NCBI RefSeq assembly: GCF_030410395.1
Contig: NZ_JAUHHF010000003.1
Span: 310,001-374,000 of the forward strand
Direction: 5' to 3'
From: Zwartia panacis
GTDB lineage: Bacteria; Pseudomonadota; Gammaproteobacteria; Burkholderiales; Burkholderiaceae_B
Length of the DNA: 64,000 bases
The notes beneath the pieces were generated by a model. That model ran no database searches. It was not told the DNA's origin and saw only the letters and a list, made by a program, of their open reading frames with translations. A program made the position numbers and the translations under genes. Within the stretch, counting starts at the first letter, position 1; each line of letters opens with the position of its first letter. Positions 7,946-26,208 of the stretch are shown here, one piece after another.

Positions 7946-8602
7946 TTATCCTTTGACTGCAGAAACATCGAGCTTGGCGGAGGTCTTTGACTTGATCTCC
8001 TCCACTGTCACGCCTGGCGCGAGCTCCAGCAACTTGAGACCATTCGGCGTCACTTCCATCACACCCAGATCGGTGATGACCATGTCGATCACACCCACCC
8101 CCGTCAAGGGCAAGGTGCACTTGGGCAACAGCTTGAGATCCGTCGTGCCGTCTTTTTTGTTCGCGACATGCTCCATCAGGACAATCACACGTCCGACGCC
8201 TGCGACCAGATCCATCGCGCCACCCATGCCTTTGACCATCTTGCCAGGAATCATCCAGTTCGCCAGATCGCCAGTCTCGGAAACCTGCATCGCGCCCAGA
8301 ATCGCCAGATTGATCTTGCCTGCGCGAATCATGCCAAACGAATCGGCCGATGAAAAAATCGCCGAACCCGGCAACGTCGTCACCGTTTGCTTGCCAGCAT
8401 TGATCAGATCGGGGTCCACTTCACTTTCGAGAGGATAGGGGCCGATACCGAGCAAACCATTCTCAGACTGGAGCCAGACTTCCATGCCTTCTGGAACATG
8501 GTTAGCCACCAGTGTTGGCAAACCAATCCCCAGGTTGACGTAAAAACCGTCTTTCAATTCGCGGGCCGCACGCGCAGCCATTTCATCACGAGTCCATGCC
8601 AT
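7946..8602 (-). CDS. scoB: 3-oxoacid CoA-transferase, subunit B
   Basis: Beta subunit of a family I CoA-transferase, which moves CoA from succinyl-CoA to a 3-oxoacid such as acetoacetate. The active-site glutamate lies in '[13 protein letters not shown]' near residue 50, where it forms the enzyme-CoA thioester. The N-terminus '[20 protein letters not shown]' and '[19 protein letters not shown]' are family hallmarks. The 218-residue length is normal. The gene follows the alpha-subunit gene by 12 bases with a ribosome site in the gap, as expected for a heteromeric enzyme. Substrate preference (acetoacetate versus 3-oxoadipate) is not certain, but the sequence resembles the ScoAB/AtoDA group. 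Confidence 0.93.
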
Positions 8603-14323: not shown

Positions 14324-14355
14324 AAGCCCACACCTCATGTGGCTATTGCGACCCT

Positions 14356-16335
<1,980 letters not shown>

Positions 16336-23066: not shown

Positions 23067-23771
23067 ATGAATGATCCGCGTCCCACACTATCCCACAGCC
23101 CTTACCAGACTGGTGCTGGAGAGGTCGTGCGCAACCGGGTTTTGCGCAACACTTACTGGTTGTTGGCGCTTTCACTGATTCCTACTGTTCTGGGCGCTGC
23201 TGTCGGCATGTACAGCGGCCTGAACGAAGTCATGGCCACCAGTCCAGGCATGACAGCGATCGTCTTTCTGGTCGGCGCCTTCGGTCTGATGTTTGCGATC
23301 GAAAAAAATAAAGAAAGCTCTTTGGGCGTTGGTCTGCTGCTGTTGTTCACGTTCTTCATGGGCCTGATGCTCTCGCGCATGCTGGGTTTCGTTCTGGGCA
23401 TGAGCAACGGCACATCGCTGGTCATGTTCGCCTTTGGTGGCACGGCGATCGTATTCGGCACCATGGCTACGCTCGCCACGTCGATCAAGCGTGACTTGTC
23501 GGGTCTGAGCAAGTTCATGTTCATGGGCGTCGTGATCTTGTTGCTCGCCAGCCTGGCCAACATCTTCTTGCAGATCCCTGCTCTGATGTTGACTGTGTCG
23601 GTGCTTGCGATCGTGATCTTCTCGGCATTCATGCTGATTGACTTGCAGCGTGTGGTCAACGGTGGCGAGACGAATTATGTCTCCGCGACTTTGGCGATCT
23701 ACCTCGACGTCTACAACGTCTTTGCCAACCTGCTTGCTATCCTTGGTATTTTTGGTGGCAGCCGCGATTAA
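23067..23771 (+). CDS. Bax inhibitor-1/YccA family membrane protein
   Basis: A 234-residue protein with seven predicted transmembrane helices, of the BI-1/YccA family; members affect membrane proteolysis (FtsH inhibition by YccA) or act as calcium-leak channels. Typical segments are 'VLRNTYWLLALSLIPTVLGAAVGM', 'LGVGLLLLFTFFMGLMLSRMLGFVLGM', 'FGGTAIVFGTMATLATSIKRDLSGLSKFMFMGVV', and the C-terminal 'NYVSATLAIYLDVYNVFANLLAILGIF' with the conserved Asp near the end of the pore helix. AAAGGAG precedes the ATG at the right distance. A strong terminator follows directly. Confidence 0.93.
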   Translation: MNDPRPTLSHSPYQTGAGEVVRNRVLRNTYWLLALSLIPTVLGAAVGMYSGLNEVMATSPGMTAIVFLVGAFGLMFAIEKNKESSLGVGLLLLFTFFMGLMLSRMLGFVLGMSNGTSLVMFAFGGTAIVFGTMATLATSIKRDLSGLSKFMFMGVVILLLASLANIFLQIPALMLTVSVLAIVIFSAFMLIDLQRVVNGGETNYVSATLAIYLDVYNVFANLLAILGIFGGSRD

Positions 23772-23795: not shown

Positions 23796-23825
23796 AGGCC
23801 CACTTCGGTGGGCCTTTTCTTTTTT
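23796..23825 (+). terminator. Rho-independent terminator after the Bax-inhibitor-1 gene
   Basis: AGGCCCAC-TTCG-GTGGGCCT is a perfect 8-bp GC-rich stem with a stable UUCG loop, followed by TTCTTTTTTC. It begins 24 bases after the stop codon. Confidence 0.93.
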
Positions 23826-23838
23826 CCTCTTTTAGCTT

Positions 23839-24031
23839 GGAGGGGGTGCCTGACCGTGACAGACCGAAGCTTGGTCCGGGCTTTGCCCGGACTGCCCTGC
23901 GCCCGCCTTGAGTGCATCGCACAACACCCGAACTCGCCCCGTCGGGGCTCAGACACGGGCGTTGTTGACACGATGCACTCTGCTTTGGGCTTGGCTGCGC
24001 TAACGGTCTGTCACGGTCAGGCGCCCCCTCC
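23839..24031. repeat. Long palindromic repeat, copy A
   Basis: A 193-bp non-coding element with 28-bp terminal inverted repeats matching at 27 of 28 positions (23839-23866 against 24004-24031). Inside are further pairings: CCGGGC-TTTG-CCCGG near 23876, CCCCG-TC-GGGG near 23937, and GAGTGCATCG near 23910 with CGATGCACTC near 23971. The whole element can fold into one long branched hairpin. It is related to copy B (25006-25199) in the reverse orientation. It carries no coding capacity and no obvious target-site duplication. Confidence 0.88.
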
Positions 24032-24114
24032 GTTGAAGAGCTCGCAAAGCGCAGTGAAAGGCATCACCTAAAGAGTCTAAGGTGTTTGACAGTCAATAAG
24101 ACAATCTAGTCGGT

Positions 24115-24177
24115 TTCACTTTTTGTTAGATCGAATTCACTTTTTGTTAAATCAAATTCATTTTTTCTTATTTAGAA
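24115..24177. repeat. Three 21-bp tandem repeats at the 3' end of the crotonase gene
   Basis: Units start at 24115, 24136 and 24157, each beginning TTCACTTTTTGTTA or TTCATTTTTTCTTA. The third, most diverged unit contains the stop codon and last codons of the minus-strand crotonase gene. The two further units lie beyond the stop, as if the gene end had been duplicated. Confidence 0.75.
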
Positions 24178-24904
24178 ATGCAGCAAAGGCGGCTTGGGCC
24201 TCATCGGATTTCAACCTTTCGTTGAAATGAGCCCATTCGTAGTCAAACGCAGCGTGAATTTTTGGTCGAAGGGTGTGCTTAAGCATGCGCTTGGAAGTTT
24301 GGAGAGCCTCTGGCGGAAGCGCGGCAAGTTCGCGCGCTGTGTGTTGGGCGACCTGAAGTGCCTCGCCAGGTGCACAAAGCTCTGTAATAAAGTCGGCATC
24401 CAGAGCTTCTTTTGCACTAAATGGTCGGCCACGTAACAGCCAGTCCGTGGCTCGACGAACGCCAACAATTTGCGCCATCAGCATGCTGGAGGCACCCTCA
24501 GGACATAGACCGAGCGGGACGAAGGGAATCTTAAAAGTGACATTATCCGCCGCATAAATAAAATCGCAGTGCTGTAACAAAGTGACACCAATCCCGATTG
24601 CACTCCCTTCAACCGCGGCGATCACTGGTAAATCACAATCTGCCAGACTGCGAAGAAATTTGATTCCGGCGCTATCCCCATCCGGCCTCGGTCCTTGAAA
24701 ATCCTTTAGATCATTACCTGCAGTGAAATAGTTGTTGGCGCCAGTCAACACAACAGCCCGGACATCCTTGTCCTGACCTGCCCCCCAAATCTGTTCAGCC
24801 AACCCAAGATACGTCGCCACATCCAAGGCATTCCGACGCTCAGGACGATTAATCGTCAACGTCAATACCCCATTAGCCTTTTCAGCCAAAACCGTTTGAG
24901 TCAT
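24158..24904 (-). CDS. Enoyl-CoA hydratase/isomerase (ECI2-like crotonase)
   Basis: A 248-residue crotonase-fold protein. The oxyanion-hole regions are 'VLTGANNYFTAGNDLKDF' and 'AAVEGSAIGIGVTLLQHCDFIYAAD'. The catalytic region reads 'FKIPFVPLGLCPEGASSMLMAQIVG'. The PEG-(A/C)-SS sequence carries the single catalytic Glu of Delta3,Delta2-enoyl-CoA isomerases of the ECI2 type, while the first hydratase Glu is replaced by Phe. Isomerase activity is therefore more likely than hydration, by inference. GGAG six bases upstream fixes ATG 24904; an earlier ATG contains that site. The gene stands alone between the inverted palindromic repeats A and B. Confidence 0.88.
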   Translation of the reverse strand: MTQTVLAEKANGVLTLTINRPERRNALDVATYLGLAEQIWGAGQDKDVRAVVLTGANNYFTAGNDLKDFQGPRPDGDSAGIKFLRSLADCDLPVIAAVEGSAIGIGVTLLQHCDFIYAADNVTFKIPFVPLGLCPEGASSMLMAQIVGVRRATDWLLRGRPFSAKEALDADFITELCAPGEALQVAQHTARELAALPPEALQTSKRMLKHTLRPKIHAAFDYEWAHFNERLKSDEAQAAFAAFLNKKK

Positions 24905-25005
24905 CAAATACTCCAAAAAAATTCACTATCAACTTGTAGCCCAAAAAAACAAGAAAGACACCAATAAGGCCTCTCTTTATGTGTTTGACCTTTGGCGTCT
25001 AGCTC

Positions 25006-25199
25006 TTGAGGGTGGCGAAGGGGCGCCAGACCGTCAGCGCAGCCAAGCCCGCCTGAGAATCAGCGCGCTAACAACGCCCTACTGTCTGAGCCCCAACGGG
25101 GCGAGTTAGGGCGTTGTGCGATGATTCCCAGACGGGCGCAGGGCAGTCCAGGCAAAGCCTGGACCCAGCGTCGGTCTGGCGCCCCTTCGCCACCCTCAA
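25006..25199. repeat. Long palindromic repeat, copy B (inverted relative to copy A)
   Basis: A 194-bp element with perfect 28-bp terminal inverted repeats (25006-25033 against 25172-25199). Read on the minus strand it aligns with copy A. Shared are GGCTTTGCC, GGACTGCCCTGCGCCCG, ACTCGCCCCG, GGGGCTCAGACA, GCGTTGTT and GGGCTTGGCTGCGCT. The outer arms and several stems differ between copies but stay complementary within each copy, e.g. CCAGGC/GCCTGG here for CCGGGC/GCCCGG in A. Confidence 0.88.
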
Positions 25200-25215
25200 T
25201 AGCCATCAATAGCCA
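25196..25215. repeat. 10-bp tandem duplication at the edge of repeat B
   Basis: TCAATAGCCA occurs twice in a row. The first copy overlaps the last four bases of the terminal inverted repeat of copy B, so it could be a slippage product or a remnant of insertion. Confidence 0.5.
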
Positions 25216-25323: not shown

Positions 25324-26208
25324 ATGTTGACCGTAAAAACTGACGATGGCGTTGATCTAGTCTACGAGACCACAGGCTCGGGCACCCCGATTGTTTTTGT
25401 CCACGAATTTGCCGGACACAAAGAAAGCTGGGAACCACAGGTGCGTCACTTTTCACGTCAATACCAAGTCATCACCTACAACGCACGCGGCTATCCCCCG
25501 TCTGCCGTCCCACCCGAAGTTTCCTCGTACTCACAGAATCGCGCCGTCGCCGACATTATTGCCGTGATGGATCATTTAAAAATCGATAAAGCCCACATCG
25601 TCGGCTTATCCATGGGCGGATTTGCGACATTGCATTTTGGCCTGCAACATCCCCACCGCGCCTTGTCCTTGTGCGTGGCAGGTTGCGGCTACGGTGCAGA
25701 ACTCGAACAACAAGAACAGTTTAAAAAAGAAGCCGAAGCGAGCGCGGACATGTTGCTCAAACAAGGCATGAAAGCCTTCGTCGATAAATACGCACACGGT
25801 CCCACGCGCTTGTCGTTTGAACGCGCCGACCCACGCGGCTTTGCCGAGTTCAAGCAACAGTTCTATGGACATTCAGCACTCGGCTCAGCCAACACACAAC
25901 TCGGTGTTCAGCGCGAACGTCCATCACTTTACAACCTGAAAAGTCAGCTTGCCAAACTCACCGTCCCCACCCTGATTTTGAATGGCGACGAAGACTGGCC
26001 TTGCCTAAAACCCGGCCTCATGCTCAAAGAAACGATTCCATCGGCCGCGTTGGCGATATTGCCCAACTGCGGACATACGATGAACATTGAAATGCCCGAT
26101 GAGTTTAATCACGTATTGGGTAACTTCCTCGCGCATGCCTCAAGCGGTCGCTGGCCCATGCGCGATCCTCGTGCCATGGTCGCCTCCATCACTGGCATCA
26201 AGGACTAA
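25324..26208 (+). CDS. Alpha/beta fold hydrolase
   Basis: A 294-residue alpha/beta hydrolase. The nucleophile elbow is 'HIVGLSMGGFATLHFGLQHP' (Gly-Leu-Ser-Met-Gly), the acid is in 'LILNGDEDWPCLKPG', and the base His is in 'LPNCGHTMNIEMPDEF'. The fold begins 'MLTVKTDDGVDLVYETTGSGTPIVFVHEFAGHKESWEPQ'. The family includes enol-lactonases and ring-cleavage-product hydrolases, so a step in organic-acid breakdown fits, but no substrate is assignable. ATG 25324 has AAAAGGAG eight bases before it, better than an upstream TTG. The next gene starts 2 bases after its stop, so the two are coupled. Confidence 0.9.
   Translation: MLTVKTDDGVDLVYETTGSGTPIVFVHEFAGHKESWEPQVRHFSRQYQVITYNARGYPPSAVPPEVSSYSQNRAVADIIAVMDHLKIDKAHIVGLSMGGFATLHFGLQHPHRALSLCVAGCGYGAELEQQEQFKKEAEASADMLLKQGMKAFVDKYAHGPTRLSFERADPRGFAEFKQQFYGHSALGSANTQLGVQRERPSLYNLKSQLAKLTVPTLILNGDEDWPCLKPGLMLKETIPSAALAILPNCGHTMNIEMPDEFNHVLGNFLAHASSGRWPMRDPRAMVASITGIKD

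Follow-up and report, generated by a model that had tools for sequence, protein, structure and literature searches.

Elements A and B, two intergenic palindromes of about 193 bp each in a 64,000-nucleotide stretch of the Zwartia panacis genome (the window), are members of a large and widespread repeat family that has no match in Rfam. The explanation that we favour, and to which we give an even chance, is that they are REPIN- or MITE-like chromosomal repeats acting through a folded DNA hairpin, formed either by a single strand or as a cruciform.

A preliminary description of the window had reported two palindromes of this size with 28-bp complementary arms, and these were confirmed by a repeat search and in the letters. 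The outer arms of A are 28 nt long and complementary at 27 of 28 positions (96%). Those of B (25002-25033 and 25172-25203) are 97% complementary over 32 nt, a perfect stretch of 28 included. The arms are thus self-complementary within each element, yet they differ between the copies. The core common to A and the reverse complement of B is 96 nt long and 86% identical. The paired stem changes described earlier, and the replacement of GAGTGCATCG by a stem of the GAATCA type, are likewise visible in the letters and in the alignment. With short flanks included, A folds at -137.4 kcal/mol (z -11.2) and B at -153.8 kcal/mol (z -13.2), and each fold beat 200 of 200 dinucleotide shuffles. Both folds have the same architecture (Table 1): an outer stem, P1; a hairpin, P2, of 9 bp closed by 3 unpaired nt; a long stem, P3, which is interrupted by an asymmetric internal loop and carries the conserved tip; and a junction block on the 3' side. 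No Rfam family reached its gathering score in the window, in L107 and L108 or in eight loci of other families, and at a permissive E-value only sub-threshold matches were obtained.

Table 1. Elements A and B, their parts and the neighbouring genes (positions in the window)
Feature	Position	Strand	Basis
Element A, complete branched palindrome (P1, P2, P3 with conserved tip)	23839..24031	+	Letters, repeat search, fold
A, left outer arm (P1, 5' side)	23839..23866	+	96% complementary to 24004-24031
A, right outer arm (P1, 3' side)	24004..24031	+	Inverted-repeat search
A, hairpin P2, GGTCCGGGC-TTT-GCCCGGACT, then conserved GCCCT block	23873..23893	+	Fold and alignment; position from letters
A, stem P3, GAGTGCATCG...CGATGCACTC	23910..23980	+	Letters, fold, alignment
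A, conserved tip AACTCG...CTCAGACA, in P3	about 23931-23955	+	Letters, fold, alignment
A, conserved block GGGCTTGGCTGCGC, 3' side of junction (CTCGGC in more distant copies)	23987..24000	+	Alignments
Element B, entire palindrome, in opposite orientation to A	25006..25199	-	Letters, repeat search, fold
B, hairpin P2, CCAGGC/GCCTGG type	25145..25165	-	Letters, fold
B, conserved tip	25083..25107	-	Letters, fold
Bax1-I (YccA-like) gene, upstream of A	23067..23771	+	ORF, Pfam
Enoyl-CoA hydratase/isomerase gene (Pfam ECH_1), between A and B	24158..24904	-	ORF, Pfam, genome comparison
Alpha/beta hydrolase gene	25324..26208	+	ORF, Pfam

BLASTN with the element found only A and B in the window's genome and gave matches in 7 of 101 genomes among relatives, the window's genome included. 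Covariance models raised the number of copies in the window's genome to six, the four beyond A and B lying on C50 (three) and C11 (one). With a first model, R1, at a cut-off of E≤1e-3, copies were present in 21 of 32 congeneric genomes. A search at BLASTN level therefore misses much of the family (7/101 against 21/32, in a different genome set and at a different threshold). A second model, R2, built from 40 copies, matched 60 of 200 genomes (24 of 42 genera) in the family at E≤1e-4 and, at E≤1e-5, 26 of 250 genomes (18 of 121 genera) in the order and 23 of 232 (21 of 197) in the class. The congeneric, family, order and class figures all include the genome of the window. Because the three wider searches (family, order and class) scored only 11-14 candidates per genome, they give minimum copy counts, and the E-values of the models are rough. 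In 218 kb of unrelated DNA, one match was seen at E≤1 (E=0.41). The earlier expectation that further copies should exist was thus borne out by four in the same genome and many in relatives.

No match for A was found in plasmid and phage collections; the copies at L190 and L131 had no plasmid match, and L303 had neither a phage nor a plasmid match. An exact 19-mer occurred in 60 stretches of viral contigs, most of them AT-rich, mutually similar and without a model match. The model matched 6 of these 60 loci at E≤0.01 (7 matches), three of the six loci having only matches weaker than 1e-4. In L310, L303 and L333, on contigs labelled viral, the same tip stands beside an ACCAAA...AAAAATCAAGGCTG-like flank, and L303 holds a +- pair with weak scores; the three are possibly host DNA of another phylum. 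In the window's genome an ABC transporter operon (L107; periplasmic binding protein and ATPase by Pfam) has copies at both ends (8210-8576 and 14325-14482), three in total. Three copies are likewise present in L108 and L110, and two in L109 and L111. No description of the palindrome family was recognised in the literature searched; literature outside that search may differ.

The most constant letters of the family are largely unpaired: ACT-TCCC after P2, AACTCG...CTCA(G/A)ACA at the tip and CGGC at the 3' junction. Stem sequence is free across diverged copies, and Watson-Crick pairing is kept. In a seven-copy alignment, 27 of 77 predicted pairs showed double changes, mostly in the outer arms. 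Over 126 copies, 88.0% of cells were paired, compared with 54.5% after shuffling and at most 44.0% with slid partners, percentages that lean towards structure because alignment A6 was fitted to the model. The covariation score of the same copies was 0.677; shuffling reduced it to 0.154 and sliding the partners to 0.109 or less. A double change had occurred in 55 of 59 pairs. The covariation noticed in the two window copies is supported by these figures. The number of further pair types showed no excess in the 126 copies (198 against 204.1 in shuffles). This set includes one weak match, L111:1261-1419, which is also a member of one +- pair.

Arms lying beyond the model provided a test without the lean towards structure. 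They were complementary for 40 of 41 matches in the genus (6 of 190 with swapped flanks), for 48 of 53 in other genera of the family (4 of 256) and for 6 of 32 in other families of the order (0 of 151), where membership rests on model scores and the common tip. Most copies inspected in these other families have a different, AT-rich 5' hairpin. At L179, L184, L188, L190, L192 and L193, an AT-rich hairpin of the TTACTTTCTTTTGC-TTCG-CCAAAAGAAAGTAA type and a CCAAAGAAAAGGCGACC-like tract precede the core. The motif TTCTT(G/A/T) adjoins the arm on the 5' flank in 26 of 99 copies, and on the other side in 1 of 99.

If a folded transcript were under selection, G-U pairs would be expected to be common as intermediates. 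RNase P of 29 congeneric genomes was used as a control. G-U accounted for 1.7% of standard pairs in P1, 2.3% in lower P3 and 0.9% in upper P3, compared with 12.9% in RNase P. Among the non-Watson-Crick states of variable pairs, its share was 0.11, 0.19 and 0.09 respectively, against 0.72 in RNase P. Taking P1, P3 and P2 minus its first pair together, 65 cells were G-U and 88 were A-C, misplaced alignment columns being expected to raise mismatch counts. G-U and A-C are thus similarly rare in the long stems, whether the site is convergent, tandem or divergent, and pairing there is strand-symmetric. Outside these stems G-U was more frequent: 13.0% in P2, where 108 of 117 cells came from one constant position, and 14.9% and 16.6% in junction helices 2 and 10, in which only 72% and 67% of cells were paired. 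Over all helices it amounted to 4.7%, G-U (285 cells) slightly exceeding A-C (236). A structured RNA is conventionally recognised by G-U pairs that are common and preferred over other mismatches, and the long stems did not show this. Strand-symmetric pairing fits DNA hairpins or arm-to-arm copying; it weakens a model in which one strand folds as RNA, and weakens a two-strand RNA model less. The covariation of the long stems therefore points to DNA-level pairing or arm-to-arm copying, and not to one folded transcript.

The preliminary description had attributed the compensatory changes to selection on a folded RNA or a DNA cruciform, with protein binding, mobility or transcription termination as possible roles. 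That the elements are non-coding, palindromic, covarying and constrained is supported. Among the options named, a folded RNA is a less likely source of the covariation and an intrinsic terminator is not supported; the best fit is a hairpin or cruciform at the level of DNA, combined with mobility. The family would be a natural example of strong covariation that seems to originate in DNA, although such a signal is usually taken to prove a functional RNA. The comparison of G-U with A-C, using RNase P as control, is a simple discriminator that can be applied to other candidate RNAs.

The alternative of a two-strand RNA structure at gene 3' ends, which we consider unlikely, supposes that the palindrome folds in either of two convergent transcripts and there blocks 3' exonucleases or aids Rho-dependent termination. 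Both strands would then have to fold, and G-U, being A-C on the other strand, would be excluded. The locations of the copies are in its favour: 66 of the 126 matches lay between convergent genes, with 24 tandem in sense, 20 tandem in antisense, 11 divergent and 5 of unassigned context, as judged by a longest-ORF heuristic and with members of a pair counted singly. The even orientation at tandem sites also suits a structure that serves both strands. G-U was lowest in convergent copies among the known contexts (1.3%), but it was scarce in tandem and divergent copies too (1.5-2.8%). At the 3' end of the fumarase gene (identified by Pfam), an obvious hairpin with T-run was seen by eye at 3 of 12 sites without the element (L218, L219 and L223) and visual inspection of 6 sites with it revealed no strong intrinsic terminator, a weak comparison because it is small and the next genes differ between sites. 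Against a two-strand role, the Bax1 gene retains its own hairpin and T-run (about 23796-23826) before A, and a T-rich tract followed the arm end in 3 of 99 copies when both strands were inspected. An intrinsic terminator, hairpin plus T-run, is not supported by the latter count. Likewise, a sense-strand 3'-UTR element was ruled out by the absence of strand bias in tandem copies.

Orthologous sites allowed the changes within single elements to be followed. Between the enoyl-CoA hydratase (ECH) and hydrolase genes, the flanks of L012 and L015 are homologous, whereas the core is identical at 127 of 137 positions when reversed and at 86 of 111 in the forward direction. A simple outside-in pairing of the arms gave 26 pairs that were the same, 5 double changes, no G-U and 1 broken pair. 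Both orientations also occur among copies between the fumarase and formate-tetrahydrofolate ligase genes (named by Pfam). Template switching is reported as homogenising arms and inverting spacers (PMC8604942) and as explaining perfect stems with compensatory changes (PMC8794818). Coupled arm changes with spacer inversion at an orthologous site are the pattern observed here, and arm-to-arm template switching alone can yield changes that look compensatory. The reported cases concern short repeats in yeast genes or RNA genes, whereas the present elements make up a dispersed family whose core changes slowly.

The core was less diverged than four-fold sites of the neighbouring genes (0.07-0.19 against 0.37-0.65) in all 20 pairwise comparisons, which are non-independent and cover five genomes at each of two sites. 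This amounts to 2.5-6 times less divergence at the two orthologous sites and indicates that the core is kept at fixed places. Between L012 and L015, divergence was 7% in the core, 15-18% in the arms, 37-42% at four-fold sites, 26% in the left flank and 5% in the right flank with its promoter-like stretch. As the arms are less diverged than the four-fold sites and the left flank, they too are under constraint. Paralogous cores within a genome (0.18 for A and B, 0.16 in L014) are about as close as orthologues, so that concerted evolution could feign constraint and exchange between copies may contribute. With that qualification, a core constrained at fixed sites suggests a host role alongside, or in place of, mobility.

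The same data bear on the view that the elements are neutral relics, their symmetry upheld by template switching alone. The published precedents for arm homogenisation, spacer inversion and compensatory change would accommodate it, as would the strong differences between the arms of different copies, the inversions of the core and the similar divergence of paralogues and orthologues. We nevertheless think it improbable: the same unpaired motifs recur in highly diverged copies from several families, the core evolves more slowly than four-fold sites, and copies are biased to gene ends and arranged in +- pairs. We consider it very improbable that the elements are strand-specific RNAs, whether structured small RNAs or cis-regulatory ones. 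This would explain the three-way junction, the conserved loops and the short junction helices rich in G-U, and a possible precedent is given by the transcripts bprJ1 and bprJ2, of about 80 and 200 nt, reported from a possibly related Bordetella repeat (PMC3110155). However, it is opposed by the lack of an Rfam match at gathering score, by the depletion of G-U in the long stems relative to RNase P, and by the inverted cores at orthologous sites and even orientation at tandem ones. Insertion of the core into existing terminator hairpins, with the outer arms as host terminator stems, was prompted by L156 (two copies with cores 90% alike, outer arms different but self-complementary, and a T-run visible after the arm of one copy), but it is scarcely credible and as a general rule ruled out, since T-rich tracts are so rare, no hairpin was seen by eye in the ECH-hydrolase spacer of outgroups, and arms travel with the core in genome G111.

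Close pairs of copies were predominantly head-to-head: 22 of 25 were +-, with two --, one ++ and no -+, in a set for which some loci had been chosen for two neighbouring matches and which does not include every close pair of the family and order searches. An exception outside this set is G002:C41, with - followed by +. Loci read later add 12 +- pairs and one -- pair, many of them from the same genomes.

Some genomes carry many copies. Counts of the tip pattern were 101 in G111, 52 in G189 and 26 in G056, with none in each for the reversed-pattern control, which low counts (0-2 per genome) resemble. Model R2 matched 15 of 17 loci retrieved from G111 at 25-40 bits. Near-identical copies in this genome include the arms, and P2 and the tip hairpin vary as whole paired modules. 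Two element subtypes are present in G111 (L365-L381), facing each other in several loci. The two copies of G060 are 95% identical over 253 bp and similarity is lost within about 12 bp of the palindrome, while in G032, and partly in G111, it extends beyond the palindrome. All 7 loci of G032 (L382-L388) hold a +- pair of near-identical make-up, and the repeated unit looks like a dimer. Because similarity there spans the pair, the moving unit may be the pair itself. No target-site duplication was evident by eye in the flanks of G060, G111 and G032, and no exact empty site was found.

Under the DNA hairpin reading that we favour, A and B would both be members of an old family of palindromic chromosomal repeats that has become dispersed. 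A putative protein acting in trans would read the unpaired motifs on the folded DNA hairpin; with the loops read in this way, only the complementarity of the stems would matter, for which attC sites and REPIN/RAYT repeats offer parallels. Template switching or conversion between arms would copy mutations across and occasionally flip the core. Dispersal may occur by mobilisation in trans, as single or head-to-head units, through a protein that we postulate, and copies may be tolerated or retained at gene 3' ends, where they could have a host role. A protein reading conserved loops on a DNA hairpin would make the family a convenient system in which to study structure-directed DNA recognition and the persistence of palindromes in genomes. 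More tentatively, and with considerable doubt, the elements could represent an undescribed and very widespread class of DNA-structure elements across much of the Gammaproteobacteria (in the GTDB sense), its tip present in a few viral-labelled contigs, in which a protein reads loops and junction, stems drift but stay paired by arm copying, movement is head-to-head and copies are adopted at gene ends.

The element pair also suggests how a gene in the window came to be inverted. The ECH gene is co-oriented with Bax1 in 24 of 26 genomes that have both genes (the window counted) and reversed only in the window and L014. At BLASTN level, these two are also the only ones of the 26 with oppositely oriented copies on both sides of the ECH gene. 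The reversal of the gene in the window probably came about by recombination between A and B, which are in opposite orientation to each other. A crossover inside the cores would be expected to leave hybrid arms, yet both copies are now well paired with different arms; the copies may thus have been alike at the crossover, or the arms may have been copied again later. Between B and the alpha/beta hydrolase gene sits TTGACG...AAGCTA, which we take to be promoter-like from the sigma-70 consensus. The neighbourhoods of L026, L032 and L036, titled 'MAG: Bordetella parapertussis', resemble Zwartia and Sheuella records, and these titles look doubtful.

Integron attC sites are recognised as a folded single DNA strand, with a variable stem and conserved unpaired bases. 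The present family may be analogous, as its stem sequence varies and its unpaired bases are conserved. REP, BIME and REPIN repeats are moved by RAYT (Y1 HUH) transposases, and REPs have a conserved stem and tag. These repeats resemble our family in being palindromic, intergenic, arranged in inverted doublets, numerous in some genomes and probably moved in trans. They differ in that REPs and REPINs conserve a stem and tag, whereas here the stem is free, conservation falls on the loops and the junction, and the junction is a three-way one. REPs measure 20-40 bp (PMC3733652). Bordetella 'Bor' repeats of 26-30 bp (PMC1590033) and stem-loop families (PMC2267715) have also been described.

The nearest published item, by description, is the BRE (Beta-proteobacterial repeat element) of Hot et al. 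(2011), to which the palindrome family is possibly related. According to that paper (PMC3110155), BREs are GC-rich, chromosomal and usually intergenic, and occur in Bordetella, Polaromonas, Delftia and Acidovorax, some of them at convergent gene ends (lexA); they are suspected of mobility, and their function is given as unknown. Compared by these descriptions only, hosts and habitat are similar, but BREs are 75-91 bp long and at some loci tandem with variable copy number, whereas the present elements are about 190-230 bp, branched, and single or in inverted pairs. The lexA loci of 32 genomes (24 and 8), among which the presence of B. pertussis-like genomes is uncertain, contained no tandem array of about 90 bp, the longest TRF period being 32. 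Elements of the present family lie near lexA in L242 and L249.
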